Of a DNA stretch of 64,000 nt, positions 49,816 to 64,000 are shown in pieces. Both the position numbers and the translations under genes were made by a program. The notes beneath the pieces were generated by a model. That model ran no database searches. It was not told the origin of the DNA and was given only the letters and a program-made list of their open reading frames with translations. Positions within the stretch are counted from its first letter, which is position 1, and every line of letters starts with the position of its first letter. Origin of the DNA: Salinispora cortesiana (GTDB lineage Bacteria; Actinomycetota; Actinomycetes; Mycobacteriales; Micromonosporaceae); NCBI RefSeq assembly GCF_000484695.1, contig NZ_AXVR01000005.1, positions 1 through 64,000 on the forward strand. Reading direction: 5' to 3'.

Positions 49816-50847
49816 TCAGCTGACCTTCTTTGCACCCTTGATCGCGGTGGCCAGGTTCTCCAGCAGCGGAGCGGCACCGGCGTACGAGAAGCGGGGCACG
49901 GAGTCCCAGGCGGTGACCTGGTTGGCCGCCACGGCCGGTAGCTTCGCCCAGGTCGGCTTGGCGGCGAGGTCGTCGGCCTGCAGCGCGGTGCCACGGTTGT
50001 CGAGCAGAAGCAGGTCGGCCGGGAACTTGCCGGCGTTTTCCCAGCTGAGTGCCTCGAAGTAGTCGCCCGCCTCCAGTTTGGTGGGCACTACGAGGTCGAC
50101 GCCGAGCTCGGCGAAGTACATCAAGTCGGTGCTCACCTGCGGGTTGGAGACGTAGAACAGGTCGGGACTGCCGGAGCAGGCCATCACCTTGATACCCGGG
50201 TTGGCCTTGACGGCTTCACGGACCGACTCCGCCGCGGCTTCGAAGCGGGCCTTCGCCTTGGCGACCGCCGGCGCGGACAGGTCCGCGCCGAGGGACTCGG
50301 CGAGCTGCGCGTATCGTTCGATGGGCTGGGTCATCGGCACCCGGGCGGTGGTGATCGCCGCGACCGGGGCGAGGGGGACAATCTTGTCTTTGCTCTCGTC
50401 CGGCACGTACCAGAGCGCATCGGGGTCGTACATGTGGGTGACCAGCAGTTCGGGCCGCAGGCCGACGTACTTCTCCAGATTGAACTCGCCCCAGGTGTTG
50501 CCCAGGATCTCCACGCTCTCCACGTTCAGCTCCCCGGCCTGCGGGTCCTTGCTGCCATCGGCGCGGGTGGTCTCGCCGAACACGCCGACGACCTGCTCGT
50601 TGAGGCCGAAGTCGACCAGCGCCGCGGCCACTCCGGTGAAGGCGACGACGCGGGTCGGAGACGCGTCGGCGGAGAGCTTCTCGCCTCGGTCGTCGGTGAA
50701 GGACCAGGGGCCGGATTTAGCGTCGGCGGAGGGGTTGTCGGTGTCCTCGCTGCCGCAGCTGGCGAGGAGGGCGGCCAGGCTGACACCGCCGGCGGCGGCG
50801 AGCAGGCCACGACGGGAAAGTCGACGGGCGGAAGCGGGGTGCGACAT
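49816..50847 (-). CDS. desE: Ferric-siderophore binding lipoprotein (DesE-like)
   Basis: A 343-residue exported binding protein of the FepB/FhuD type. The N-terminus combines a twin-arginine-like run (RRLSRRGLLAAAGGVSLAA) with a lipobox LLASCG (Cys near 31), so it is a Tat-dependent lipoprotein. The mature part has [39 protein letters not shown] and DLVVPTKLEAGDYFEALSWEN. It should capture ferrioxamine for the FecCD permeases encoded divergently. The 19-base iron box lies 46 bases upstream. Confidence 0.92.
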   Translation of the reverse strand: MSHPASARRLSRRGLLAAAGGVSLAALLASCGSEDTDNPSADAKSGPWSFTDDRGEKLSADASPTRVVAFTGVAAALVDFGLNEQVVGVFGETTRADGSKDPQAGELNVESVEILGNTWGEFNLEKYVGLRPELLVTHMYDPDALWYVPDESKDKIVPLAPVAAITTARVPMTQPIERYAQLAESLGADLSAPAVAKAKARFEAAAESVREAVKANPGIKVMACSGSPDLFYVSNPQVSTDLMYFAELGVDLVVPTKLEAGDYFEALSWENAGKFPADLLLLDNRGTALQADDLAAKPTWAKLPAVAANQVTAWDSVPRFSYAGAAPLLENLATAIKGAKKVS

Positions 50848-50892
50848 GTTAGATCTTTCGGTCGGGGTCGCGGGCGACCATGGACAGCGGGG

Positions 50893-50911
50893 TTAGGCTA
50901 ACCTAACCTAA
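50893..50911. promoter_or_regulatory. DtxR/IdeR-type iron box
   Basis: TTAGGCTAACCTAACCTAA matches the iron-box consensus at 17 of 19 positions when read on the minus strand. It lies in the 65-base divergent region between the binding-protein gene and the FecCD permease gene, and ends one base before the permease ATG. An iron-loaded DmdR/IdeR repressor bound here would shut both directions. Confidence 0.9.
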
Positions 50912-50912
50912 G

Positions 50913-52013
50913 ATGCTGTCAAGTCCCGCCCCGGCGATTCGCACCAACTCGGAGCTCACCCTGTCCGTCACTCATTCACCGCCGTCCGCTGCGCAAACGG
51001 TGTCGGCGCACCCCGTCCGACGCGGTCGCACCGCCACCCGCGTCAGCGGCCTCGCCGCCGCCGTTCTTCTGCTCGCCGTCGTCGCGGTGCTCAGCATCGC
51101 CGTCGGGGCAAAAGCCCTCCCCCTCGCCGACATCTGGCCCGGACTACTCGACCCCGACGCGGACGAATACACCGTGGTCCACCAGATGCGCCTGCCCCGC
51201 ACGCTGCTCGGCCTGCTCGCCGGGGCCGCCCTCGGGGTTGCCGGGGCGGTCATGCAGGCACTCACCCGCAACCCGCTCGCCGACCCCGGGCTACTCGGCA
51301 TCAACGCCGGCGCCTCCGCGGCGGTAGCCACCGGCACGGCCCTCGTCGGTGTCGCGGGGCTGGACGGACAGGTCTGGTTCGCGCTGATCGGCGCTGCCGC
51401 CGTCACCGCCGCCGGCTACGTCGTGGGCGGCGGGCGCGGCGCCACCCCCGCGCGGCTGGCCCTCGCCGGCGCCGCGCTCAACGCCACCCTCTACTCATAC
51501 GTGAGCGCGATCATGCTGCTCGACGCCGCCTCACTGGAACGACTGCGGTTCTGGACCGTGGGCTCCCTGGCCAGCGCCGAACTGGCCATCGTCGGCACAG
51601 TGGCGCCGTTCATCGCGGCGGGGCTGCTGCTCGCTCTCGCCGTGGCCCGCCCACTGAACGCCCTCGCCCTCGGCGACGACACCGCACGGGCGCTCGGCGC
51701 ACGGCCGGCGCTGATCCGGGCGGCGGTCATCGCGGCGGTCACCCTGCTCTGTGGTGCCGCCACCGCCGCCTGTGGACCGATCGTCTTCGTCGGGCTACTG
51801 GTCCCGCACCTGGTACGCGCGCTGACCGGGCCGGACCTACGGTGGCTGCTGCCCTACTGCGCCGTACTCGCACCCGTGCTCCTGCTCGGCGCCGACGTGC
51901 TCGGCCGGATCCTCAGCCGCCCCGGCGAACTCCAGGTCGGCATGGTCACCGCCGTGCTGGGTGGGCCGCTCTTCCTCTGGCTGGTACTCCGCGGGCGGGT
52001 GGGGCAGCCATGA
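50913..52013 (+). CDS. FecCD-family siderophore permease (first)
   Basis: A 366-residue permease of the BtuC/FecC type with about nine to ten helices. It has MRLPRTLLGLLAGAALGVAGAVMQALTRNPLADPGLLGINAGA, the family hallmark, and CGPIVFVGLLVPHLVRALTGPD with the ATPase-contact glycines. The first 45 residues are hydrophilic. ATG 50913 has no ribosome site and abuts the iron box, suggesting a leaderless message; a GTG at about 51000 could be an alternative start. Its stop overlaps the next permease as ATGA. Confidence 0.9.
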   Translation: MLSSPAPAIRTNSELTLSVTHSPPSAAQTVSAHPVRRGRTATRVSGLAAAVLLLAVVAVLSIAVGAKALPLADIWPGLLDPDADEYTVVHQMRLPRTLLGLLAGAALGVAGAVMQALTRNPLADPGLLGINAGASAAVATGTALVGVAGLDGQVWFALIGAAAVTAAGYVVGGGRGATPARLALAGAALNATLYSYVSAIMLLDAASLERLRFWTVGSLASAELAIVGTVAPFIAAGLLLALAVARPLNALALGDDTARALGARPALIRAAVIAAVTLLCGAATAACGPIVFVGLLVPHLVRALTGPDLRWLLPYCAVLAPVLLLGADVLGRILSRPGELQVGMVTAVLGGPLFLWLVLRGRVGQP

Positions 52014-53038
52014 TTGTCCTGCGCACTCCTGGCGGTGTCTCGCTGCGCCTGCACCCGCGCGCCCTCACCGTCGGCCTGACCTGCGCGCTACTCACCCTGG
52101 CCGTGGGTGTGCTGGCACTGGGTAGCGGCGACTACCCGCTGAGCGCCGCCGACGTGCTCCGCACCCTGGCCGGTGACGGCACCCCGGCCGAGGAGTTCAT
52201 CGTCCACGAGCTGCGGCTTCCCCGGCTGGCCACCGCCATCGCGGTCGGCGCCGCCCTGGCTCTGGCCGGCGCCGTCTTCCAGACCCTGGTCCGCAACCCC
52301 CTCGGCAGTCCCGACCTGCTCGGCTTCACCCAGGGCGCAGCGACCGGCGCGCTGGTGGTGATCGTCGTCGGCGGCACCAGCACGATGCTCTCCGGCGCCG
52401 CCGCCGCCAGCGGACTCGCCACCGGCCTCCTGGTCTACATGATCGCCTGGCGACGCGGAGTGCACGGCTACCGACTCGTACTGGCCGGCATCGGGGTCGC
52501 CGCGATCCTTACCGGAATCAATGGATGGCTGCTCACCCGCGCCCCACTGATGGACGCCGCCCGGGCCGTACTCTGGCTCACCGGCAGCCTCGACGGCCGG
52601 GGCTGGATACACGCCCTGCCGGTCCTGATCGCCCTCGCCCTACTCGGGCCGGCGGTGCTGGCCGGCGCCGGACCCGCCCTGCGGCTGATGGAGATGGGCG
52701 ATGACTCCGCCAACGCCCTCGGCGTGCCGGTCGAGCGCCTGCGGCTGGCCCTGCTCGGCGCGGCCGTGCTGCTGGTCTCCCTCGCCTCGGCGGCTGCCGG
52801 CCCGGTCAACTTCGTGGCGCTCACCGCGCCGCACCTGGCCCGACGACTCACCCGCGCACCCGGTCCCAACCTGCTGCCCTCGGCGCTGCTCGGGGCATTA
52901 CTACTGGTCATTGCCGACCAGATCGCTCAGCGCGCCATCCCCGGCCACCAACTGCCGGTAGGCGTGGTGACCGGCTTGATCGGCGGCGGATACCTGATCT
53001 GGCTACTGGCGGCTGAGCGCCGGGCGGGTCGACTGTGA
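52010..53038 (+). CDS. FecCD-family siderophore permease (second)
   Basis: A 342-residue partner permease. It has LRLPRLATAIAVGAALALAGAVFQTLVRNPLGSPDLLGFTQGA and AAGPVNFVALTAPHLARRL, parallel to the first permease, and about nine hydrophobic segments. ATG 52010 overlaps the upstream stop, and its stop overlaps the ATPase start (GTGA), so the transport proteins are translated as a set. Confidence 0.92.
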   Translation: MIVLRTPGGVSLRLHPRALTVGLTCALLTLAVGVLALGSGDYPLSAADVLRTLAGDGTPAEEFIVHELRLPRLATAIAVGAALALAGAVFQTLVRNPLGSPDLLGFTQGAATGALVVIVVGGTSTMLSGAAAASGLATGLLVYMIAWRRGVHGYRLVLAGIGVAAILTGINGWLLTRAPLMDAARAVLWLTGSLDGRGWIHALPVLIALALLGPAVLAGAGPALRLMEMGDDSANALGVPVERLRLALLGAAVLLVSLASAAAGPVNFVALTAPHLARRLTRAPGPNLLPSALLGALLLVIADQIAQRAIPGHQLPVGVVTGLIGGGYLIWLLAAERRAGRL

Positions 53039-53874
53039 CAACGACGGAGAACGGAGCACCGAAAATGCGGTCCCGGCTACGCGGTAGCGCGATGACCCTG
53101 GCGTACGAACGGCGGACCATCTCCCGCGAGTTGACCGTCGATGTTCCGGACCAGTCGTTCACCGTCGTCATCGGCCCGAACGCGTGCGGCAAGTCCACCC
53201 TGCTGCGCGCCCTGTCCCGGCTGCTTCGGCCGAGCGCCGGCGCGGTCCTGCTGGATGGGGCGGACATCCACCGACGTCCCGCCCGGGAGATCGCGAAGAC
53301 CCTTGGCCTGCTGCCCCAGTCCTCGATCGCCCCGGACGGCATCGGGGTGGCCGAACTCGTCTCCCGGGGCCGATACCCACACCAGGGGCTACTACGGCAG
53401 TGGTCCCGCGAGGACGAGGCAGTGGTCGCCGAGTCGATGGCGGCCACCGGCGTCACCGACCTCGCCGACCGTCCAGTAGCCGAACTCTCCGGCGGGCAAC
53501 GACAACGGGTCTGGCTCGCCATGGCCCTCGCCCAGCAGACCCCGCTGCTGCTGCTCGACGAACCCACCACCTATCTGGATATCGCCCACCAGATCGAGAT
53601 CCTCGACCTCTGCGCCCGGCTACACGAGGAGGAGGGCCGTACGCTGGTCGCCGTACTCCACGACCTGAACCAGGCCGCCCGCTACGCGACCCACCTGATC
53701 GCGATGCGCGACGGGCAGGTGGTGGCGACGGGCCCACCCCAGACGGTGGTTACCGCCGCGCTCGTCGAAGAGGTCTTCGGCCTCACCTGCCGGGTCATCG
53801 ACGATCCGGAGACCGGCACCCCGCTGGTGGTGCCGGCGGCCCGGCGCCGGACCGCGATCGGAGTCACGGCGTGA
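53035..53874 (+). CDS. Siderophore ABC transporter ATP-binding protein
   Basis: A 279-residue FepC/FhuC-type ATPase. Walker A is VIGPNACGKSTLLRAL, the Q-loop LLPQSSIAPDGIGVAELVSRGRYPHQG, the signature ELSGGQRQRVWLAMAL, and Walker B LLLLDEPTTYLDIAHQIEIL followed by HDLNQAARYATH. All are classic for ferric-siderophore import. The N-terminus looks about 15 residues longer than usual; an internal ATG (MTLAYERRTISREL) is the other possible start. Confidence 0.93.
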   Translation: MTTTENGAPKMRSRLRGSAMTLAYERRTISRELTVDVPDQSFTVVIGPNACGKSTLLRALSRLLRPSAGAVLLDGADIHRRPAREIAKTLGLLPQSSIAPDGIGVAELVSRGRYPHQGLLRQWSREDEAVVAESMAATGVTDLADRPVAELSGGQRQRVWLAMALAQQTPLLLLDEPTTYLDIAHQIEILDLCARLHEEEGRTLVAVLHDLNQAARYATHLIAMRDGQVVATGPPQTVVTAALVEEVFGLTCRVIDDPETGTPLVVPAARRRTAIGVTA

Positions 53875-55964
53875 GACTCTTCCGAGACCAGTGGGGTGTC
53901 CCGCACCTGCGGGCCGCCGGCCCCGACGAGCTGGCATACGCCCAGGGCCGGGTCACCGCGTACGACCGGGCCTGGCAGATCGAGGTGGAGCGGCACCGAT
54001 CGCTGGGGGCGAGCGCCGCGTTCCTCGGCCCCGAGGCGGTGCCGTGGGACCGACTCGCCCGCCAGGCCCGCCTCGCCGACACTGCCCGGCGCTGCCATGC
54101 TCGCCTCGACCCGGCGACCGCCTCCTGGGTGGGCCGGTACGTGGCCGGAATCAACGCCGGTCTGGCGGCGGGGGCGGCCCGCGACCCGCGCTTCGCCACC
54201 GCTGGGCTCGACGCCGGTCGGTGGGAGCCGTGGACCCCGCTGGCGATCTGGCTGGCCCACCACGTCCTCTTCGCCGGCTTCCCCAGCAAGCTCTGGCGCG
54301 AGCACGTCACCCGGCGACTCGGCCCGGACGCCGTCGCGCTCTTCCAGGCCGACGCGCCGATCAGCTCCGGCAGTAACGGCTGGCTGCTGGCCGGCGGACG
54401 TACTGCCACCGGCGCCGCCCTCATCGCCGGCGACCCACACCGGTACATCGAGGACCCGGGCATCTACCAGCAGGTCCGCCTCGCCTGCCCGGCGTACGAC
54501 GTGGTCGGCCTGGCGGTACCGGGGGTTCCCGGCATCGCCCACTTCGGGCACACCGGCGAGGTCGCCTGGGCGATCACCAACGCGATGGCCGACTACCAGG
54601 ACCTGTACGCCGAGCGGCTACGTCGACGGGGTAGCGGCGTGGAGGCGTACGGGCCGGATGGTTGGGAGCCGACGCGCACCCACGCAGAGACGATCGCGGT
54701 GGCCGGCGGCGAGCCGGTCGAGGTGGAGGTGGTGGAGACCGACCGGGGGCCGGTGGTGGTCGGCGGCCCGGAGTCGGCCGAGGCGATCAGCCTCCGCTAC
54801 CCACCCCGGGTCACCGGCGAGCTGGGCTTCGCCGCGTTGCCGGCGCTACTGCGGGCACGCACCGTCGCCGACGTTGACGCCGCCGTGGAGCACTGGGTGG
54901 AGCCGGTCAACGTGGTGCTCGCCGCCGACACCACCGGTGGACTACTGCACCGGGTCGCCGGTGCGGTGCCGGCCCGCCCCCCGGCCAACGGCGTACGGGT
55001 CGTGCCGGCGTGGGAGCCCCGGTACGCCTGGTCTGGCTGGTGCTCGATGCCGCGGGCAACCGTCAACGAGGTCGCCGTGATGGCCAATGAGCGGGCTGTC
55101 TCCGCTCCGCTGGGGGTCGAGTTCGCACCCCCGCACCGGGCCCGGCGCATCCGCGAGCTGCTCGACGCGACCGCCGGTTGGACGGCGGAGCGAATGACCG
55201 ACGTGCACACCGACACGTACACGGCCGCCGCTGGGCCGCTGCTCACCCTCCTGGCGGGCCTGGCGGAGCTGCCGACGCCGGCCGCCGCGCTGCGCGACCG
55301 GCTGCTGCGCTGGGATCGACGGATGGCCGCCGAGAGCACCGACGCGGGCGCCTTCGCCGCCGTCCGGGCCGCCCTGGTCCGGCGGATCACCGCCCACCCG
55401 GCGCTGGCGGCGCTGACCGACCCACCGGCGTACCCGGAGGTCTTCGCGCCCTGGTTGGCGCTGGCCCCTCGGGTGGGGACGGCGCTGGCCGCGCTGCTCG
55501 CTCCCGACGCGCTACCCGGACTGGACGCGCCGGCCCTGGTCCGGGCCGCGCTGCTGGAGGTCGCGGGCAGCGACCTCGACCCCGCCGTCGGCGGTGAGGC
55601 AGCCCGGTGGGGTGCCCGGCACCGGCTTGCACCCTGGCGGGCGGTGCCGGTCAGTGTTGGCGCGGACAAACTGGGGCCAGGCTCCGCGGGGGCGGCTGCC
55701 GGACCGGAACTCGACGGGGAGCACGACTGCGTGCTCTCCACCTCCAGCGTGCCCGGGGTGACCGACCGGTGCGGGCGCGGGCCGGCCGCCCGGTACGCCT
55801 GGGACCTCGCGCGGCGCGAGAACAGCCGCTGGGTGGTGCCCCTCGGCGCGGATGGCGTGCCTGGCTCGGCGCACGACGACGACCAGCTGACCGCCTGGCA
55901 ACGCGGGGAACTGCTGCCGGTAGTCACCGACTGGGACAAGCTGACTGAGGAGCGAAATGGGTGA
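53871..55964 (+). CDS. Penicillin-amidase-family Ntn hydrolase of the des locus (DesG-like)
   Basis: A 697-residue N-terminal-nucleophile amidase that makes or breaks amide bonds of acylated compounds. The alpha part starts directly with RDQWGVPHLRA, so there is no signal peptide and the protein should stay in the cytoplasm. The self-cleavage site and catalytic Ser are at SSGSNGWLLAGG (Ser near 168); LIAGDPHRYIEDPG and the beta-chain Asn region PVNVVLAADTTGG follow. It is coupled to the siderophore ATPase (GTGA). Amidases have been reported in desferrioxamine clusters as desG, tied to acyl/aryl variants; that link is from memory. It may add, remove or exchange acyl groups. Confidence 0.85.
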   Translation: MRLFRDQWGVPHLRAAGPDELAYAQGRVTAYDRAWQIEVERHRSLGASAAFLGPEAVPWDRLARQARLADTARRCHARLDPATASWVGRYVAGINAGLAAGAARDPRFATAGLDAGRWEPWTPLAIWLAHHVLFAGFPSKLWREHVTRRLGPDAVALFQADAPISSGSNGWLLAGGRTATGAALIAGDPHRYIEDPGIYQQVRLACPAYDVVGLAVPGVPGIAHFGHTGEVAWAITNAMADYQDLYAERLRRRGSGVEAYGPDGWEPTRTHAETIAVAGGEPVEVEVVETDRGPVVVGGPESAEAISLRYPPRVTGELGFAALPALLRARTVADVDAAVEHWVEPVNVVLAADTTGGLLHRVAGAVPARPPANGVRVVPAWEPRYAWSGWCSMPRATVNEVAVMANERAVSAPLGVEFAPPHRARRIRELLDATAGWTAERMTDVHTDTYTAAAGPLLTLLAGLAELPTPAAALRDRLLRWDRRMAAESTDAGAFAAVRAALVRRITAHPALAALTDPPAYPEVFAPWLALAPRVGTALAALLAPDALPGLDAPALVRAALLEVAGSDLDPAVGGEAARWGARHRLAPWRAVPVSVGADKLGPGSAGAAAGPELDGEHDCVLSTSSVPGVTDRCGRGPAARYAWDLARRENSRWVVPLGADGVPGSAHDDDQLTAWQRGELLPVVTDWDKLTEERNG

Positions 55965-56511
55965 CCGGGTGGTCTTCGGGCGGGTAGTCCCGGGCTTCGG
56001 CGAGGTGCAGCTGCGGCCGGTGGATCCGGAGGGCGACCTGGACCTGATCCACGGCTGGGTCAGCCAGGAGCGGGCCCGGTACTGGGGGATGCGCGACGCC
56101 GGTCGGGATCGGGTGGCGGAGATCTACCGCTACCTGGACTCACTTCCCACTCACCATGCCTGGCTGGCGCTACGCGACGGGGCTCCGGCGGCGTTGTTCC
56201 AGACGTACCAGCCGGACGCCGATCCAGTCGGTGAGGTGTACCCGGTCCAGCCCGGCGACCATGGCATACATTTTCTGATCGGCCCGCCGACCCGCCCCGA
56301 GCCGGGCTTCACCGGCCACCTCTTCGGGATCCTGGTCGACTTCGTCTTCGCCGACCCCACCCACCACCGGATCGTCGCCGAGCCGGATGCCCGCAACGAG
56401 CGGGCACAGGCCCGACTGCGCCGTACCGGCTTCGTCGACGGGCCGCTGGTCGACCTGCCGGACAAGCAGGCCCGACTGATGTTCCTGGACCGCGCCGCCG
56501 CCGGCCGCTGA
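55957..56511 (+). CDS. Second siderophore-type GNAT acyltransferase (DesH-like)
   Basis: A 184-residue protein of the same GNAT subgroup as DesC: IHGWVSQERARYWGMRDAGR, PGDHGIHFLIGP and RIVAEPDARNERAQARLRRTGF align with the DesC blocks. It begins eight bases before the amidase stop, with GAGGAGCG upstream, so the two are made together. It probably supplies a different acyl group to hydroxycadaverine or to a finished desferrioxamine. The gap to the next, convergent gene (56512-56635) shows no convincing terminator. Confidence 0.88.
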   Translation: MGDRVVFGRVVPGFGEVQLRPVDPEGDLDLIHGWVSQERARYWGMRDAGRDRVAEIYRYLDSLPTHHAWLALRDGAPAALFQTYQPDADPVGEVYPVQPGDHGIHFLIGPPTRPEPGFTGHLFGILVDFVFADPTHHRIVAEPDARNERAQARLRRTGFVDGPLVDLPDKQARLMFLDRAAAGR

Positions 56512-56635: not shown

Positions 56636-57325
56636 TCAGCCAGGACAACGGTCGGAGAGGGCGTAGCGGACCAACGCGACATCGCCGATCTGTCGTACCT
56701 CGGCGATCTGGGCCCGGTGATTGGCATGCCACGGAAAGGAGCCGTCCCGGACGAAGCGAGGTGCCCGGCCGTCCCCGACGAAGAACGGGGCGATCACCAG
56801 ATGCAGCTCGTCGGCGAGCCCGCTGGCGAGGAACTGGGTGTGCATGCTCGCGCCCCCCTCCACCAGCAACCGACCAATCCCCCGTGCGGCTAGGTCGGCA
56901 AGCACCGACACCAGGTCAACCGGCTCCCCGGCGTCAACCACGGTGGCGAGGTCGCCGAGGCGTTCCCGGACCTTGACCACCCCCGAGGAGGCACAGTAGA
57001 TCAACCGTACGGTCGCACCGGTGGTGAACACCCGAGCCCGTGGGTCAAGGTCGCCGCAGCCGGTGACGGTCACCCGGGCGGGCGAGGCAGCCAGGCCACG
57101 GGCAACCCGCTCGGCACGTCGCGCCGCGGACCGCACCAGCAGCCGTGGATCGTCTCGCCGGATGGTGCCCGCACCAACCAGGATCGCGTCGCAGCCAGCC
57201 CGCACCCCGTCGATCCGCTCCAGATCGGCGTCGTTGGAGAGCACCAGCCGCTGACTGGTCGCATCGTCGATGTAGCCGTCCAACGACGTGGCACAGCTAA
57301 GCAGGACGTACGGGCGCTCAGTCAC
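56636..57325 (-). CDS. RibD C-terminal-type pyrimidine reductase, stand-alone
   Basis: A 229-residue reductase of the RibD-C/dihydrofolate-reductase-like fold. It has VLLSCATSLDGYIDD (substrate end), CDAILVGAGTIRRDDPRLLVR (NADPH and ribose contact), and RLLVEGGASMHTQFLASGLADELHL. The deaminase half of bacterial RibD is absent, as in archaeal and fungal enzymes that reduce the ribosyl group before deamination. It should turn the product of the GTP cyclohydrolase II next to it into a ribitylamino-pyrimidine. GTG 57325 overlaps the cyclohydrolase stop by eight bases, so both are produced together. It is the last gene of the operon. Confidence 0.88.
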   Translation of the reverse strand: MTERPYVLLSCATSLDGYIDDATSQRLVLSNDADLERIDGVRAGCDAILVGAGTIRRDDPRLLVRSAARRAERVARGLAASPARVTVTGCGDLDPRARVFTTGATVRLIYCASSGVVKVRERLGDLATVVDAGEPVDLVSVLADLAARGIGRLLVEGGASMHTQFLASGLADELHLVIAPFFVGDGRAPRFVRDGSFPWHANHRAQIAEVRQIGDVALVRYALSDRCPG

Positions 57326-57962
57326 GAACGAAGGGCAGGTCGAGGGCGTGCTCGCCGCGAGTCGCCTTGACCGCCAGATAGTCGGCGTTGGCCGGGGAGA
57401 GGAAGACTCCGGTGGTCACCCGTTCGCTGATGGCGATGCCGTGTCGGTTCAGCTGTGCGCTCTTGTCCGGGTTGTTGCTGAGCAGTGCGACCCGGTCCAC
57501 GCCGAGGGCGGCGAGCATCTGTACGGCGACGGTGTAGTCCCGCTCGTCCGCCTGGTGGCCGAGGGCGATATTCGCCTCGTACGTGTCCAACCCGGTGTCC
57601 TGCAACGCGTACGCCGCCAACTTCGCGAACAGGCCGATGTCCCGGCCCTCCTGGCGCAGATAGAGCAGGTAGCCACCGCGCTCGGCGATCCGTTCGACCG
57701 CCTCGCGCAGCTGCGGGCCGCAGTCGCAGCGCTGGCTGCCGAACACGTCCCCGGTGAGGCACTCGCTGTGCGGCCGCACCAGCGGCACCGAGCGCTCCGC
57801 CGGCACAACAGCTGGGTCAGCCCGGTCGCCGAGCCCGAAAGCCAGGTGCTCGCGGCCGTCAACCAATCCAGCGAAGGAGTAGACCCGGGCGGTGGTGGCA
57901 TACCCGTCTGGAAATCGTAGCGGGACGCTGACCTCGGTGCGGATCGTGGCAATGGGATGCAT
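57318..57962 (-). CDS. ribA: GTP cyclohydrolase II, monofunctional
   Basis: A 214-residue enzyme opening the GTP imidazole ring and releasing formate and pyrophosphate. Zinc ligands are Cys68, Cys79 and Cys81 (HSECLTGDVFGSQRCDCG), followed by YLRQEGRDIGLFAKLAAYALQ and ADERDYTVAVQML. Tyr118 corresponds to the catalytic Tyr105 of the E. coli enzyme, so normal chemistry is expected. There is no fused RibB domain, unlike many bacterial housekeeping enzymes, and the neighbours are not the other riboflavin genes. ATG 57962 has GAGGAG six bases upstream. Confidence 0.92.
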   Translation of the reverse strand: MHPIATIRTEVSVPLRFPDGYATTARVYSFAGLVDGREHLAFGLGDRADPAVVPAERSVPLVRPHSECLTGDVFGSQRCDCGPQLREAVERIAERGGYLLYLRQEGRDIGLFAKLAAYALQDTGLDTYEANIALGHQADERDYTVAVQMLAALGVDRVALLSNNPDKSAQLNRHGIAISERVTTGVFLSPANADYLAVKATRGEHALDLPFVRD

Positions 57963-57973
57963 CGGACTCCTCG

Positions 57974-58975
57974 TCAGACGGTGCCAGCCGGCACGGGGAC
58001 ACGACGGGCCGCCAGGACGGCGGCCCCGGGAAGACTGGCGACGAGCACCAAGGCTCCATAGACGATGGCGGTAGCGACGCCCTCCGCGGCGGAGAGGCCG
58101 GCTGCGCCGAAAGCCCACGCGGCCGCCCCCTCGCGGGGCCCGAAGCCAGCGATGTTCGCCGGAATCCCCATGGCGAGCAGAGCCAGCAGGGTCAACGGCA
58201 ACAGCAGTGACAGCGGCGCCGTGGAGCCGGCGGTTCGGGCGGCGAGCACAAAGGTCGCCAGGTGCCCCACCACGGCCAGGGTCGAGGCGAGCAGCACCCC
58301 GAGCCAGGTGCGGCGAGCCAGTAGGCCGGCGCGGATGTCGGCGATGGCCACGCGGACCACCCGCGCCCACCGGGACTGACCGGCGGGACGTACCCACGCC
58401 AGCAGCGCTGCGCCGAGGCCGATCCCGGCCAGCGTAGCGGTCACCACCGGCAGGTACGGCCGGACCGGGGACGGGAACGCGGCCAGTACCACCACCGCGA
58501 CCACCGCGAGGACCAGCTGGCCGGCGGTCCGCTCCCAGAGGACGGCCCGGACACCCCGGCCGAGGTCCCCCGTGGCCCGCCCGTGGCGAACCGCCCGGTG
58601 CACGTCGCCCAGGATCCCGCCGGGCAGGGTCGCGTTGAGAAAGACCGCCCGGTAGCAGTGGGCGACGGCGGTGCGCAGCGGCAGCCGGACCCCGAGTCCC
58701 CGGGCCACCAGGCTCCAGCGCCACGCGCCGCAGACCGTGGTGACCCCACCGATCGCCAGCGCCGCGGCCAACGCCGGAACGGTGATCAGACGCAGCCCGG
58801 CAAGGATCGGGCCGGTGCCTACCAGCCACAGCAGCAGCGCCAGCAGACCGAGACCACCCAGTGTCCGGGCCCATGCCCAGAGCCGGCCGCTGGCCGGCGG
58901 TAGCAGGGCATCGCCCTCGCCATCCGACCCGCCCTCGCGGTCTATCCGTGGGTAGGCCCGCTCCACCGCGGTCAC
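57974..58975 (-). CDS. Flippase-like integral membrane protein (LPG-synthase TM / UPF0104 family)
   Basis: A 333-residue protein with about eight transmembrane helices, of the family found in lysylphosphatidylglycerol synthase and AglD-like proteins. Family marks include WRWSLVARGLGVRLPLRTAV, RAVFLNATLPGGILGDVHRAV, RAVLWERTAGQLVLAV and ANIAGFGPREGAAAWAFG. Such proteins move or accept lipid-linked groups. About 30 charged residues precede the first helix. GTG 58975 overlaps the methyltransferase stop (GTGA) and only 11 bases separate it from ribA. It suggests that the operon's product is lipid-linked or membrane-delivered. Confidence 0.88.
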   Translation of the reverse strand: MTAVERAYPRIDREGGSDGEGDALLPPASGRLWAWARTLGGLGLLALLLWLVGTGPILAGLRLITVPALAAALAIGGVTTVCGAWRWSLVARGLGVRLPLRTAVAHCYRAVFLNATLPGGILGDVHRAVRHGRATGDLGRGVRAVLWERTAGQLVLAVVAVVVLAAFPSPVRPYLPVVTATLAGIGLGAALLAWVRPAGQSRWARVVRVAIADIRAGLLARRTWLGVLLASTLAVVGHLATFVLAARTAGSTAPLSLLLPLTLLALLAMGIPANIAGFGPREGAAAWAFGAAGLSAAEGVATAIVYGALVLVASLPGAAVLAARRVPVPAGTV

Positions 58976-59820
58976 GGGTTCGTCGCCGGCAGGGCCAACA
59001 GGTCCCGGTGGTCCACCAGCACGGACAGCCGGCCGGCCACGAGGTCGGCCTGGCGGCGACGCACGTACCCGGTCAGCGGACCGGCCAGCTGGGGCCGCTG
59101 CTCTCGGGCTGCGTCGGTCCAGCCGGTAAACCACTCCCCCAACAGGTCCACGTCGGCGGGGCCGAGCCGCCACGGGCTGGACCGCAGCGTGACCGTAGCG
59201 CCCTGGTTGGCAAAGGCCGCGGCGGTGCCGGCCACGGCGTCCGGACCGAGCAGGCGCCGTCCCCGAACAGTGCGGCGCTGGTGGTCGTCGAACGCCGCGG
59301 CGACCTCCGCGTCGAGCGGGTCCGTGGGGTCGAGCCGGACCTGACCGACCACCGAGAGTGTGAAGAGGGCCGGCCGGCCGAGGCAGGCCGCCGCTACCCG
59401 TGCGACCTCCTCGGCGGTGAGCATGTCCAGCAGCGCGGAGGCGGTGATCAGGTCAGCCTCGGCCAGCTCGTTGGCGGTGAGCCGGGTCAGGTCATCGCGA
59501 CGGGTCTCGACGGTGACCGGGCTCCCATCGGCGGCAGCCGGTGGTGGGTGGGCGGCGGCCCGGGCCAGCAGGCCGGCGTCCGCGTCGTGCAGAACCCAGT
59601 GTTGCGGCCCGGGTAGGCGGGGGGCGAGCCACCGGCCCATCGCGCCGGTGCCGCTGCCCAGGTCGTGGACGACGACCGGGCGGGTGCCGGCGAGCCGGGA
59701 CCGGACCCGATCGGCGAGGTCGACAACGCGAGCGGCGGCGTCGGCCGGTTCCCGCCGGGTGAGCCAGTCCGCGAAGGCCGCCGGCAGGCCCAGCTCGAGG
59801 TCACAGTCCTGCTCTGTCAT
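58972..59820 (-). CDS. SAM-dependent methyltransferase
   Basis: A 282-residue class I methyltransferase. Motif I is VVHDLGSGTGAMGRWL (about residues 50-65), with an acidic loop HDADAGLL and LITASALLDML after it. The C-terminal part (LLGEWFTGWTDAAREQRPQL) has no known substrate signature. ATG 59820 overlaps the glycosyltransferase stop, and its stop overlaps the membrane gene. A role in methylating the glycosylated product is inferred from the operon. Confidence 0.85.
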   Translation of the reverse strand: MTEQDCDLELGLPAAFADWLTRREPADAAARVVDLADRVRSRLAGTRPVVVHDLGSGTGAMGRWLAPRLPGPQHWVLHDADAGLLARAAAHPPPAAADGSPVTVETRRDDLTRLTANELAEADLITASALLDMLTAEEVARVAAACLGRPALFTLSVVGQVRLDPTDPLDAEVAAAFDDHQRRTVRGRRLLGPDAVAGTAAAFANQGATVTLRSSPWRLGPADVDLLGEWFTGWTDAAREQRPQLAGPLTGYVRRRQADLVAGRLSVLVDHRDLLALPATNP

Positions 59821-60851
59821 CTTGCTCCTTCCAGCGCTGCCGCGAGCGACCGGGTGGTGGTGCTCCAGCAGGTGAGAGTCTCCCGGCGGGCCCGCGCGGC
59901 GCGGCGCAGCCGGTCCCGCAAGGCCGGGTCGGTGAGCCAGCGGCGGAGCGCCCCGGCGAGGGCGGTCGGGTCGTCTGGGGGCACCAGCATGCCGGGCACC
60001 GTCCCGTCCGGCGCGCGGCCGAGGGTGTCGGGCAACCCACCGGCGGTGGTAGCCAGCACCGGTACGCCCCGCGCCAGCGCCTCCGTCACCACCATCCCGT
60101 ACGTCTCGACCCGGGAGGCCAGCACCAGCAGGTCGGCGGTGGCGTACCCGGTGGCCAGGGCGGATCCGGTCCGGGGTCCGGCGAGATGCACCCGCCGGGT
60201 GAGGCCCAGCTCGTCGATCCGTTCCCGGAGCCGTTTGACGAAGCCCGGCTCATGGGTGAGCGACCCGAGGCAGTCACAGCGCCAGGTCAGCTCCCCGACG
60301 AGAGCGAGGGCGTCCACCAGCGTGTCGTGTCCCTTGTGCGGGGTGAGGGCGGCGACGCAGAGCAGCCGCTCGCCTGCTGCCGAGCCGGACCCGGCGGCGG
60401 CCCGGTCGACCCCGGGCGCCGCGACGTACACCCGCTCGGCGGGCAGCTGGTACCGATCGAGCAGCCACCGGCGGGTCCAGGTACTGGTCGCCACGATCAC
60501 TGTGGCGTGCCGCAGGGCCACCCGCTCTGCCACGCTGTCCAGCGGCAGGTGCACCAGCACGGCCAGGCGCAGCCGCCCGGCGTGCGGGGCCAGGAGCTCC
60601 GGCACCGTGCTGGCGACGAGCCCGTCGAGCAGGACGAGCGACCCGGACGGCAGTGTGTCGAGCACCCCGGCGAGGACGGAGCGGTCCGCGCTCGCCGGGT
60701 ACGGCCAGGCTCCGGGCACCGGGTACTCGTGGACTGACCAGCCGGCGGCCGCCAGCCCGTCAAGGACCCGCCGGTCGTACCGGTTGCCGCCACTCGGGTT
60801 GGCCGGATCGTCCACGTTGCCCGGTAGCACCGCGTGCAGGGCGCGGGTCAC
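59817..60851 (-). CDS. GT4-family glycosyltransferase
   Basis: A 344-residue retaining GT-B enzyme. The N-terminal acceptor half has [16 protein letters not shown], and the donor half has [33 protein letters not shown] (phosphate/ribose contact), and [20 protein letters not shown], containing the EX7E motif. It should transfer a hexose from a nucleotide sugar. No signal peptide or membrane segment is seen. GTG 60851 overlaps the PTPS stop, placing it between the pterin and methyl steps in the operon. Confidence 0.9.
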
Positions 60852-61246
60852 AACGACCGTTCGTAGCTGGCCCAGGCGACGTGCGACTCGTGCAGGGTGA
60901 CGCTGATGCCGGTCAGGCCAGCGACGCCCGCGCCCAGCTCCCCGGCGTGAACCCGAGCCGCGAGGCGGTCGGCGACAGTGCGGGCCAGGACCTCGGTGGT
61001 GGTGTTCACCCCGGCGAACTCCGGCTCGTCGTCCAGGTTGCGGTAGGTCAGCTCGGCGAGGACCGCGCGCAGCTGCGCAGTCGCCCGACCTATGTCAACC
61101 ACAACCCCGTCAGCGTCCAGTTCACTGCGGCGGAAGGTCGCGTCCACCACGAACGTCGCCCCGTGTAGTCGCTGGGCGGGACCGAACACCGCGCCCTGAA
61201 AGCTGTGGGCAATCATCATGTGGTCCCGGACGGTCACGCTGAACAC
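60848..61246 (-). CDS. 6-pyruvoyl-tetrahydropterin synthase / QueD-like protein with altered zinc site
   Basis: A 132-residue T-fold protein of the PTPS/QueD family. The zinc motif is partly lost. His14 (IAHSF) and His28 are present, but the usual HGH is HGA (Ala30) and the catalytic Cys upstream of HGH is missing ([12 protein letters not shown]). The Glu-containing NTTTEVLA and the end [14 protein letters not shown], near the pterin-binding Glu, are kept. The protein could still bind a pterin or pyrimidine but may not run the classic reaction. GTG 61246 follows the dehydrogenase stop by four bases. Confidence 0.85.
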
Positions 61247-61250
61247 AGTG

Positions 61251-62231
61251 TCACTCTCCGTCGTAGGTGATGAGGTGGCAGAGGGCCGGCAACCGCCGGT
61301 CGGCGAGTCGGGGCAGCACGTCGGGCAGGTCCGCGAATCGGGACTCCCCGGTCAGCAGGGCGTCGAAGACCGGGTCGGTGAGGAGATCCAGCGCCAGGCG
61401 GAGCCGGTCGGTGTGGCTACGCCGGCTCCGCCGGGCCAGGGCGACCCGTCCCACCTGGCTGCTGCGCAGGGTGAGCCGACCGGTGTGGAACTGCGCGCCG
61501 AGTGGCAGCGCCACCTCGCGGTCGCCGTACCAGCTCAGCTCCAGCACCGTGCCCTCCGGTGCCACCAGCTCCAGGCAGCGACGCAGGCCGGCGGCGGTCG
61601 CGCTGGCGTGCACCACCAGGTCCCGTCCGGCCGCCGCGTCGGCCGGTGCGGCGAACCCGACGCCGAGCGCCCCGGCGAGCGCGGCCCGGGTCGGGTCCAC
61701 ATCGACAAGCTGCACCCGTACGCCGGGAATCCGGGCCAGCAGGGCCGCGACGGCCGCACCGACCATCCCGGCACCGACCACAGTGACCCGGTCGCCGACC
61801 AGGGGTGGCTCGTCCCAGAGCGCGTTCACCGCGGTCTCCACCGTGCCGGCGAGCACCGCCCGGGCCGCCGGCACCTGCTCGGGCACCACCACCACAGCCT
61901 CGGCCGGGACCACGTACGCCGTCTGGTGCGGGTACAGGCAGAAGACGGTCCGCCCGTGCAGTTCGGTCGGACCCTGTTCGACCACGCCCACGCTCAGGTA
62001 GCCATACTTGATCGGGGCCGGGAAGTCACCCTCCTGGAACGGGGCGCGCATCGCCGGATACTGTCCGCTCGGGACAGCGCCGGTGAACACCAGCGTCTCG
62101 GTGCCGCGGCTCACGCCGGAGTAGCGGGTCCGGACGAGCACTTCGCCGGCGTTCGGGGTGGGCACCAGCACCGAGCGGAGCTCGCCTCGGCCGGGCGTGG
62201 CCAGCCAGAAGGCGCGTGCGGTCGGGCTCAC
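61251..62231 (-). CDS. MDR-family dehydrogenase without the usual zinc motif (BchC-like)
   Basis: A 326-residue medium-chain dehydrogenase. The N-terminal domain has [20 protein letters not shown]; where zinc enzymes have GHE it reads [13 protein letters not shown], so catalytic zinc is not expected. The NAD(P) site is [19 protein letters not shown] with the second strand ending QLVDVD. It resembles BchC-like proteins that oxidise a side-chain hydroxyl. GTG 62231 has GAGAGGAG six bases upstream. It is the first gene of the seven-gene operon and diverges from the CDP-alcohol transferase fusion, with 90 bases between starts. Confidence 0.87.
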
Positions 62232-62321
62232 CGGCTACTCCTCTCCACGGCCCCGGCGAACCGGAGCGATGCGTTGTCCGTAGACCCTGTCAGAGTGGTC
62301 GATCATAGACAGGGAGGCACG

Positions 62322-64000
62322 GTGGCCACGGTTCGAAACGGTCCGTTGATTGGGCTGTCCCTCCAGATTCTCCTGTCAACCGGGTTGGCCGGGACGGTGG
62401 GGCTCGGCGCCGCCGGTTGGTGCGCCGGCCTCGCGTACGGGTTGGTGGTGTGCCTGGCGCTCAGTCGCGGCCTGCACCTGGCGGCGAGGGGCCTCGGGCC
62501 GGCCGACCGAGTGACGCTCGCTCGGGCGGTGCTCATCGGCGCGGTCGTCGCGCTGGTGGCGGACGGGCTCACCGGCCGCCCGGTGCCGGTCGGGCTCCTG
62601 ACCGCTCTCGCCGCGGTGGCGCTGTCGCTGGACGCGGTTGATGGCTACGTGGCCCGACGCACCGGCACCGAGAGCGCGTTCGGCGCCCGGTTCGACATGG
62701 AGATCGACAGCGTCCTGGTGGCGGTGCTCAGTCTGCACGTGGCACCCGTGGTGGGGCCCTGGGTGCTGATCCTCGGTGCGATGCGGTACGTGTTCCTCGT
62801 CGCCGGCTGGGCCCTGCCCTGGCTACGCGGGCCGCTCCCGCCGCGCTACTGGCGCAAGGTGGTCGCGGCGGCCCTCGGCGTGGTGTTGCTGGTGGTGACG
62901 TCCCGACTGCTGTCGAGCGCGGTCGGCGGGCTGCTCGCCCTGGCGGTGTTGGTGCTGCAACTGGAGTCGTTTGGCCGGGACGTGGCCTGGCGGTGGCGGC
63001 GCCGCGCCGACCCGCCGCCGGCCCCGCTGCCGACGGCACCCACCGAGGCAGCGGGGCCACGGTGGCCGGCATGGCGGCGACGGATACCCGCCACGCTGGC
63101 GGTGCTGCTGGTGTTGGCCGCCCTCACCGTGCCGCGGCAGCCCAGTCACCTGGTACCGGCCGCGCTACTGCGGATCCCGCTGGAAGGTCTCGCGTTGGCG
63201 GCTCTCCTGCTCGCCGTGCCCGCCCGGGCACGGCGGCCGGTGGCCGCACTGGCGGGGACGCTGCTCGGGCTGCTGGTGGTGGTCAAGGCTGCCGACCTGA
63301 GCTTCCACAGCACCCTCGGCCGGCCGGTCGACCTGGCCCTGGACTGGCGCCTCCTCGACGAGACGTTCACCTTTGTCAGCGCCTCGGTTGGCCGAGGCGG
63401 CGCGATCGTGGCGTCCGTCGGCGCCGGCCTACTGGTGGGGACGCTGTTGACGGTCACCACCTGGGCGGTCCTGCGGCTGAGTCGACTGCTGTCCGGGCGC
63501 CCGGACAGCGCGCGGCGGATACTGGTGGGCCTGGTGGTGCTCTGGCTGGTGGCCGCCGCCACCGGGGTACGGATTGTCCCCGGTCTCCCGGTGGCCGACG
63601 CCGCCACAACCGACCTGGTCCGGGCGCACGCCGCGCAGGTGCAGGCACGCCTTCAGGACCGCGCGAACTTCGCCGACCGGGTGAACATCGACCCGTACCG
63701 CCTGGTCCCCGACGATCAGCTGCTGACCGCGCTGGAGGGCAAGGATGTCCTGGTCGCCTTCGTGGAGAGCTACGGGCGGGACGTGGTGCAGGAGCCGGAG
63801 TTCGCCGCCGTCGAGAGGGTGCTCGACGAGGGGCAGCGGCGACTCTCCGCCGCCGGCTTCGGTGCCCGCAGCGCCTTCCTCACCTCGCCCACCGCCGGAG
63901 GGGGTAGCTGGCTGGCCCACGCGACGCTGCTCTCCGGGCTCTGGATCGACAACAACCAGCGGCACCAGACGCTGCTGGCCAGCGAGCGGACCCCTCTCGG
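62322..64000 (+). CDS. CDP-alcohol phosphatidyltransferase fused to a sulfatase-like domain (partial, runs off window)
   Basis: An uninterrupted frame of at least 559 codons leaves the window. Residues 60-180 are a CDP-alcohol phosphatidyltransferase with every motif residue of D-x2-DG-x2-AR-x8-G-x3-D-x3-D: Asp104, Asp107, Gly108, Ala111, Arg112, Gly121, Asp125, Asp129. Further hydrophobic segments follow (about 255-420). From about residue 475 there is an alkaline-phosphatase-superfamily pattern (LVAFVESYGRDVVQ, SPTAGGGSWLAHATLLSGL) as in LTA-synthase-like sulfatases. It should join a phospho-alcohol to lipid and modify or transfer it outside. GTG 62322 has AGGGAGG five bases upstream. It diverges from the pteridine-type operon and probably belongs to it. 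Confidence 0.85.
   Translation, partial: MATVRNGPLIGLSLQILLSTGLAGTVGLGAAGWCAGLAYGLVVCLALSRGLHLAARGLGPADRVTLARAVLIGAVVALVADGLTGRPVPVGLLTALAAVALSLDAVDGYVARRTGTESAFGARFDMEIDSVLVAVLSLHVAPVVGPWVLILGAMRYVFLVAGWALPWLRGPLPPRYWRKVVAAALGVVLLVVTSRLLSSAVGGLLALAVLVLQLESFGRDVAWRWRRRADPPPAPLPTAPTEAAGPRWPAWRRRIPATLAVLLVLAALTVPRQPSHLVPAALLRIPLEGLALAALLLAVPARARRPVAALAGTLLGLLVVVKAADLSFHSTLGRPVDLALDWRLLDETFTFVSASVGRGGAIVASVGAGLLVGTLLTVTTWAVLRLSRLLSGRPDSARRILVGLVVLWLVAAATGVRIVPGLPVADAATTDLVRAHAAQVQARLQDRANFADRVNIDPYRLVPDDQLLTALEGKDVLVAFVESYGRDVVQEPEFAAVERVLDEGQRRLSAAGFGARSAFLTSPTAGGGSWLAHATLLSGLWIDNNQRHQTLLASERTPL

Follow-up and report, generated by a model that had tools for sequence, protein, structure and literature searches.

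The window, meaning the whole stretch of 64,000 nucleotides analysed here, covers positions 1 to 64,000 of the forward strand of contig NZ_AXVR01000005.1 of Salinispora cortesiana (GCF_000484695.1), and towards its end it carries a minus-strand operon of seven genes which encode, in order, a medium-chain dehydrogenase (MDR), a protein resembling 6-pyruvoyltetrahydropterin synthase (PTPS), a family 4 glycosyltransferase (GT4), a methyltransferase (MT), a flippase-like membrane protein (FLIP), a GTP cyclohydrolase II (GCH2) and a reductase (RED) (Table 1). Spacing between these genes ranges from an overlap of 8 bp up to a gap of 11 bp, and 90 bp separate the start of MDR from the divergent gene CDPA, a fusion gene that extends beyond the end of the window (62322-64682 on the contig). 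Families were assigned against Pfam and NCBIfam, and all seven genes of the tightly spaced operon that an earlier interpretation of the bare DNA (hereafter the sequence-only reading) had described were recovered with the families it had named. A scan for promoters and terminators gave no signal above shuffled sequences.

Table 1. Genes of the operon and the divergent gene, with window coordinates.
Gene	Position	Strand	Assignment	Basis
RED	56636-57325	-	stand-alone RibD-C-type reductase, no deaminase domain	Pfam RibD_C 142 bits
GCH2	57318-57962	-	stand-alone GTP cyclohydrolase II	Pfam GTP_cyclohydro2 184 bits
FLIP	57974-58975	-	flippase-like membrane protein, LPG_synthase_TM	PF03706 96 bits; alternative start 59173
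MT	58972-59820	-	class I SAM methyltransferase, Methyltransf_25	PF13649 29 bits; SAM-type motif conserved
GT4	59817-60851	-	family 4 glycosyltransferase, Glycos_transf_1	PF00534 98 bits; E-x7-E motif conserved
PTPS-like	60848-61246	-	PTPS-like T-fold protein	Pfam PTPS 84 bits; orthologue of SCO6650 (PDB 3d7j)
MDR	61251-62231	-	medium-chain dehydrogenase, BchC-like	sub-threshold ADH_zinc_N; weak TIGR01202
CDPA	62322-64000 (window part)	+	CDP-alcohol phosphotransferase + membrane region + LtaS/GacH-type domain	PF01066 46 bits

The PTPS-like protein was matched (E ≤0.001) in 60 of 394 genomes drawn evenly from the class Actinomycetes, the S. cortesiana genome included and three of the matches being weak. 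Sixty stretches were fetched, and after removal of two with a weak PTPS match and no other cluster gene (G268, G276) 58 loci from 57 genomes were retained. A named set, consisting of the best 80 of at least 410 relatives and leaning to close relatives of the window, was added (L148 was dropped as a duplicate of L039), giving 137 distinct loci. Among the 51 sample loci that are complete, the PTPS gene being flanked by 6 kb or more on either side, tblastn placement found MDR and GT4 in all 51 (as PTPS is by selection), FLIP and a CDP-alcohol transferase in 47 each, MT in 44, a cyclohydrolase in 43, a creatininase-family gene in 31, RED or a RED-like gene in 19 and an LtaS-like domain in 16. The six-gene core of MDR, PTPS, GT4, MT, FLIP and CDP-alcohol transferase is complete in 41 of the 51, and all eight families of the original finding occur together in ten, or in eight if the LtaS-like domain is counted as well; the corresponding figures for the named set (n=63) are 54, 25 and 16. 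Among the named hosts are Micromonospora, Salinispora, Actinoplanes, Streptomyces, Amycolatopsis, Pseudonocardia, Actinomadura, Kutzneria, Marmoricola and Thermoleophilia bins, and the PTPS-like protein of the window is 93-94% identical to its counterparts in Salinispora fenicalii and S. oceanensis (L101, L109). An actinomycete-type locus with 74% PTPS identity was also seen in a metagenome bin labelled Burkholderiaceae (L130), which is probably mis-binned. With its recurrence in many families of soil and marine actinomycetes, the gene arrangement is beyond chance; the pathway encoded by the locus is real and conserved.

GTP cyclohydrolase II is matched twice in the same genome (5.18 Mb), by the window gene and by a second copy on contig C9, which forms part of RibBA (DHBP synthase fused to cyclohydrolase) in a locus with a RibD that has its deaminase domain and with the lumazine synthase RibH. 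Because of this RibD-RibBA-RibH locus, the cyclohydrolase and reductase genes of the window are additional to riboflavin synthesis, and the possibility that they are simply the housekeeping ribA and ribD is ruled out. The sequence-only reading had exposed itself on two points, the co-occurrence of its eight families in other genomes and the comparison with a housekeeping riboflavin locus, and it withstood both: the families co-occur across actinomycetes, and GTP-pathway genes beyond the riboflavin set are indeed linked here with glycosyl-, methyl- and membrane-acting genes. It was likewise right that neither protein carries the extra domains of the housekeeping enzymes, GCH2 being stand-alone and RED lacking the deaminase domain. 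One might still suppose that the operon raises flavin supply as an accessory riboflavin pathway while the remaining genes make a flavin conjugate or lipid, as GCH2 and RED are of riboflavin-pathway families; yet no deaminase, lumazine synthase, riboflavin synthase or DHBP synthase is found among the operon families and a separate RibD-RibBA-RibH locus exists on C9, and we regard this explanation as very improbable. The C9 locus also includes a gene of the NMN-transporter family (L216:7044-7745), perhaps a riboflavin transporter.

In alignment to 2bz0, the window GCH2 keeps the zinc Cys residues and has Tyr118 at the position of Tyr105 of the E. coli enzyme. With the roles that we assume for the zinc Cys motif and for Tyr105 in GTP cyclohydrolase II, these residues place it among the enzymes that form 2,5-diamino-6-ribosylamino-4(3H)-pyrimidinone 5'-phosphate (APy), and it is predicted to make this deformylated product. 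The switch position was readable in 110 of the 137 loci and is Tyr in 45 and another residue (Met, His, Leu or Gln) in 65. None of the 45 Tyr-type loci has a creatininase gene in the locus and all 45 have RED or a RED-like gene, whereas 64 of the 65 non-Tyr loci have the creatininase in the locus and the remaining one (L072) has it about 13 kb from PTPS. In L049, for instance, the cyclohydrolase has Met at residue 120 and the creatininase matches PF02633 (Creatininase) with 214 bits. A genome-wide search for cyclohydrolases covered 15 genomes; 22 of the 24 copies in 14 genomes have Tyr, and the other two are the cluster copies of creatininase type. Creatininases of the same subfamily (at least 59% identity) were found in two of 70 cluster-negative genomes and in none of 17 genomes whose RED loci are Tyr-type or lack a cyclohydrolase, where the best match reached 41%.

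In phylogenetic trees the 65 non-Tyr cyclohydrolases group as a single clade nested among RibBA-type sequences (bootstrap support 97%), whereas 41 of the 45 Tyr-type enzymes lie on the branch of the window protein, apart from RibBA; the four exceptions (L088, L090, L092, L147) have long branches and side with RibBA. Since all 65 non-Tyr and 41 of the 45 Tyr-type enzymes thus sit on different branches, the modules that serve the shared core genes are not orthologous. Among the non-Tyr enzymes the switch residue has drifted between four amino acids, with no return to Tyr in 65 sequences; this drift and the supply of a single core by two separate modules are the informative points. A FastTree tree of the joined PTPS and MDR proteins requires the module label to change four times, only one of these changes being forced by well-supported branches, and no count of swaps is drawn from it. 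In four genomes of the Streptomyces family (f21; L221, L236, L241, L243) a stand-alone Tyr-type cyclohydrolase of the window's branch lies beside RED, away from the PTPS locus, a pair that the window has within its operon.

Archaea make riboflavin by the ArfA/ArfB/ArfC route, and the intermediates predicted here are those of that route, namely formation of the formylated FAPy, deformylation by an enzyme of the creatininase family, and reduction before deamination. In Sinorhizobium and Brucella, FAPy is deformylated by BrbF, which belongs to the creatininase family (PMC9478397). By analogy, the creatininase of the Streptomyces-type loci is likely a FAPy formamidase, an assignment that draws on its Pfam family and on its pairing with a non-Tyr cyclohydrolase; the simplest reading would be that the Streptomyces-type cyclohydrolase has lost deformylation and that the creatininase supplies it. 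There are also differences, as rhizobia make riboflavin via BrbF (PMC9478397) whereas the genes described here sit with glycosyl-, methyl- and membrane-acting genes, the window cyclohydrolase is predicted to act in one step, and a separate RibBA is present in the same genome. The passages of PMC7288161, consulted for FAPy, concern cyclohydrolase III only (PMC7288161).

The best NCBIfam match of RED is the archaeal-type reductase TIGR01508 (132.4 bits, below the cut-off of 186.45), and its best PDB matches, ahead of RibD chains, are the 5xux family (conserved protein) and the archaeal-type reductase 6p8c. From these affinities, RED likely reduces APy before any deamination. RED was searched for in 56 of the 57 cluster genomes (G051 was left out), taking at least 47% identity as the mark of an orthologue. 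An orthologue is present in 47 of the 56 (in G362 in two pieces), and six more, four of them Streptomyces-family genomes, have a RED-like gene inside the locus, so that 53 of 56 possess RED or a RED-like gene, whether within the locus or not. Where RED is missing from a non-Tyr sample locus, which is so in 28 cases, another part of the genome supplies it every time, and the same holds for three genomes (G250, G189, G362) whose core is without a locus cyclohydrolase or creatininase. Counted genome-wide, RED is a more constant precursor gene than either the cyclohydrolase or the creatininase, and because of this constancy the branch compound is most likely a reduced, still 2-amino, ribitylaminopyrimidine phosphate. 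Neither this constancy nor the use by relatives of another cyclohydrolase with a creatininase was visible to the sequence-only reading.

Searched as a single sequence, the PTPS-like protein has one PDB match (E ≤0.001), the structure 3d7j of SCO6650 from Streptomyces coelicolor (phmmer E 2.8e-62; 97 of 132 residues identical, 73%). The five loci nearest to SCO6650 (L168, L171, L161, L146, L150; PTPS identity 94.7-97.7%) carry MDR, PTPS, GT4, MT, FLIP and a CDP-alcohol transferase, as the window does, and the window shares with the SCO6650-SCO6655 type an orthologous PTPS in the order MDR-PTPS-GT4-MT-FLIP. They differ from it in having a Met-type cyclohydrolase together with a creatininase, whereas the window has a Tyr-type enzyme of another branch (Tyr118), no creatininase in the locus, the reductase in the operon and the fusion with an LtaS-like domain. 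The window locus is therefore a variant of the SCO6650/SCO6655 locus and not an unknown one. SCO6655 reportedly stops at formylated FAPy and has Met at position 120 in place of Tyr, as is said to have been described in 2006, and the structure paper on SCO6650 reportedly found neither zinc nor PTPS activity; we know of no role for SCO6650. The claim of the sequence-only reading that the system is undescribed has to be given up to this extent, as the PTPS orthologue already has a solved structure and passages of PMC2853524 list SCO6655 as GTP cyclohydrolase II (PMC2853524). According to the same passages, SCO6655 and SCO2687 alike show an anticorrelation with modelled flux, and this does not distinguish one from the other (PMC2853524). 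With SCO6650 as PTPS and SCO6655 as cyclohydrolase, the numbering fits the order of the locus and would make SCO6652 the methyltransferase. In a transcriptome of S. coelicolor, SCO6652 has log2 values of 0.8, 4.3 and 4.1 in the second mycelium at 24, 48 and 72 h relative to the first mycelium, stages that the authors label substrate, aerial and spores (PMC3610822). As a single gene, placed at the locus by its number, its expression suits a product of differentiation. No paper on the product of the locus was found in the literature searched, a search that most subscription papers lay outside. A hybrid NRPS-pteridine synthase cluster is the subject of PMC5384830.

The PTPS-like protein belongs to the T-fold family of QueD and 6-pyruvoyltetrahydropterin synthase by its Pfam match and falls below the NCBIfam cut-offs. 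In an alignment with the canonical PTPS chains 3i2b and 2g64, Ala30 takes the place of the second His of the HGH motif, a zinc ligand, Ala24 that of the catalytic Cys (as seen in 2g64) and Thr67-Tyr68 that of the Asp-His pair; His14, His28 and Glu120 are kept. Across 13 aligned sequences Ala24 and Ala30 are invariant, and none has Asp at 67 or His at 68. On the roles that we presume for the catalytic Cys, the Asp-His pair and the zinc His residues, a canonical PTPS or QueD is ruled out and the activity on pterins attributed to the protein by the sequence-only reading is not supported; judged by its residues, it is a T-fold protein, either binding or catalytic, whose site has been rebuilt. The best NCBIfam match of MDR is BchC, far below the cut-off, and in a map of its conserved residues we did not see the usual catalytic-zinc Cys and His, going by what we take to be the zinc motif of medium-chain dehydrogenases.

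These residues bear on a pterin pathway, in which APy would be rearranged and ring-closed to a dihydroneopterin-like phosphate, the PTPS-fold protein would handle the pterin and the product would be a glycosylated pterin. Such ring closure is normally the work of GTP cyclohydrolase I, and glycosylated pterins are known in cyanobacteria. A PTPS-fold protein whose C-terminal Glu (E120) is invariant, as encoded by the marker gene of the locus, would suit this pathway, and the residues in 3d7j are said to be fit to bind a pterin-like ligand. But ring closure needs an unreduced ribose, yet RED or a RED-like gene is present in nearly all cluster genomes (53/56), and the catalytic Cys, the Asp-His pair and one zinc His are replaced in 13 of 13 aligned sequences, and we consider a pterin product unlikely.

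At the membrane end, the first domain of CDPA has the complete motif D-x2-DG-x2-AR-x8-G-x3-D-x3-D, which we take to be that of the CDP-alcohol phosphotransferase family. Its second domain had been called a sulfatase by the sequence-only reading; the divergent fusion gene was confirmed, and the sulfatase label was replaced on the strength of a profile match, predicted fold and residues. The Sulfatase family of Pfam scores 24.3 bits on the whole protein (cut-off 25) and 26.2 on the domain alone, and a profile of 37 second-domain sequences matches in PDB only the lipoteichoic acid primase 4uop (whole-sequence E 6.5e-06). The predicted fold of the domain has a mean predicted local distance difference test score (pLDDT) of 85.2 (a single-sequence fold of the whole 786-residue fusion, at a mean of 41.7, was not used for the fold search) and matches the lipoteichoic acid primase LtaP (Z 22.3, root mean square deviation 3.3, 267 aligned residues), the corresponding synthase LtaS (Z 22.1, 3.4, 265) and the phosphoglycerol transferase GacH (Z 21.0, 3.9, 267). 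Glu102 and Asp329-His330 are invariant in the 37 sequences and Thr144 is kept in at least 90%, residues presumably equivalent to the metal and nucleophile residues of LtaS, so that the sulfatase-like fold and the Glu, Thr and Asp-His residues of the LtaS/GacH type are all present. Phosphoethanolamine transferases score nearly as well in the fold search (EptC Z 20.7, a tie with GacH; MCR/EptA about 19.5), so that these scores, while placing the domain with the LtaS/GacH type, single out neither donor, transferred group nor acceptor. It resembles LtaS, LtaP and GacH in predicted fold and active residues and differs from them in being fused to, or lying beside, a CDP-alcohol phosphotransferase and in having 10-17% identity. 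As far as the models go, the pair of CDP-alcohol and LtaS/GacH-like domains fits a lipid-headgroup relay. At one locus of family f19 (L040:3343-5052) a PMT-type glycosyltransferase gene lies between the cyclohydrolase and the LtaS-like gene.

Taken with GT4 and FLIP, these domains could also be read as a cell-envelope locus that builds or decorates a surface glycopolymer or lipid, with cyclohydrolase and reductase as neighbours of separate role. Three loci (L054, L073, L083) have the core without cyclohydrolase or creatininase in the locus, and four (L051, L065, L077, L082) have RED but no GCH2, two of the latter coming from genomes (G365, G367) with a single cyclohydrolase, all of which would agree with such a locus. 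Against it, RED is kept elsewhere in the genomes of L054, L073 and L083, all 51 complete sample loci have MDR and the PTPS-fold gene (the latter by selection), and 43 of them a cyclohydrolase, drawn from two family branches, unlike chance neighbours; we hold it to be distinctly unlikely.

Reading the gene families, their conservation, the residue patterns and the co-occurrence together, we infer a dedicated branch off the first riboflavin step that would lead to a glycosylated, methylated and membrane- or surface-linked product, and put the probability of this reading at roughly one half; its reactions, order of decoration and membrane chemistry might run as follows. In the window, the Tyr-type GCH2 would turn GTP into APy, which RED would reduce without prior deamination to a ribitylamino compound committed to the pathway. 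In Streptomyces-type loci, the cyclohydrolase without Tyr would stop at FAPy, a creatininase-family formamidase would remove the formyl group to give APy, and RED, usually encoded elsewhere in the genome, would act next. MDR and the altered PTPS-fold protein may then oxidise, condense or cyclise the side chain or ring, GT4 would supply a sugar and MT a methyl group. Attachment to a phospholipid, of the product or of its carrier alcohol, is probably the task of the CDP-alcohol transferase domain; the flippase-like protein would move the product outward and, where present, the LtaS/GacH-like domain would transfer a phospho-headgroup to an outer acceptor.

Several observations weigh against this branch pathway. 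Because the non-Tyr cyclohydrolases form one clade, their match with the creatininase amounts to one evolutionary event, and the Fisher value for the association is neither a probability of coupling nor evidence that coupling arose repeatedly. No cyclohydrolase is readable in 27 of the 137 loci, in some because the contig ends, and G250, G189 and G362 have the core with a single cyclohydrolase genome-wide and no close creatininase. The S. cortesiana genome itself speaks against strict exclusion between the two modules, as its only creatininase match is an unlinked paralogue of this subfamily on contig C2 with 61% identity to the Streptomyces cluster enzyme. A RED orthologue was found in nine of 70 cluster-negative controls, a count of close RED only, RED-like variants having been counted solely in cluster genomes; the comparison is moreover confounded by relatedness, and RED may serve other pathways too. 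In these nine genomes (L224-L232) no cyclohydrolase lies within the fetched stretch of about 7-9 kb on each side. Three genomes (G002, G281, G352) have only MDR-PTPS-GT4 at the locus and no RED orthologue. Lastly, the LtaS-like domain lies near the core in the 16 of 51 complete sample loci given above and is missing around most creatininase-type loci.

Some neighbouring genes were recorded in passing. The creatininase gene on contig C2 (L215:1963-2679) comes directly after an HTH/TPR regulator and is followed by an S9 peptidase and a glycosyltransferase, with no cyclohydrolase on that contig. In the window a GNAT acetyltransferase (Acetyltransf_8; 55957-56511) adjoins the operon, and a similar one lies by the operon in L101, L109, L112 and L114. 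A long plus-strand open reading frame of the window (53184-55964) has a second half that by eye resembles a penicillin-acylase-type hydrolase, and positions 49816-53874 appear by eye to encode an iron-siderophore binding protein, two FecCD-type permeases and an ABC ATPase. Directly past the CDPA gene and outside the window is an acyltransferase-3 membrane protein (L003:9734-10942), found among the mapped loci only in L101.

What is new here is the supply of a precursor by two kits, the constancy of RED and the LtaS/GacH assignment. The pairing of non-Tyr cyclohydrolase and creatininase gives FAPy a likely consumer in the adjoining enzyme, a common precursor is predicted for both types of locus, and RED is pointed to as the branch-point enzyme. 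More tentatively, and with greater doubt than for the branch pathway as such, the product might be an unrecognised aminopyrimidine- or pteridine-bearing phosphoglycolipid or surface conjugate, made in Streptomyces around aerial growth and sporulation and fed by two interchangeable precursor kits. If this were true, a surface lipid or conjugate bearing an aminopyrimidine would represent a class of which we know no description.

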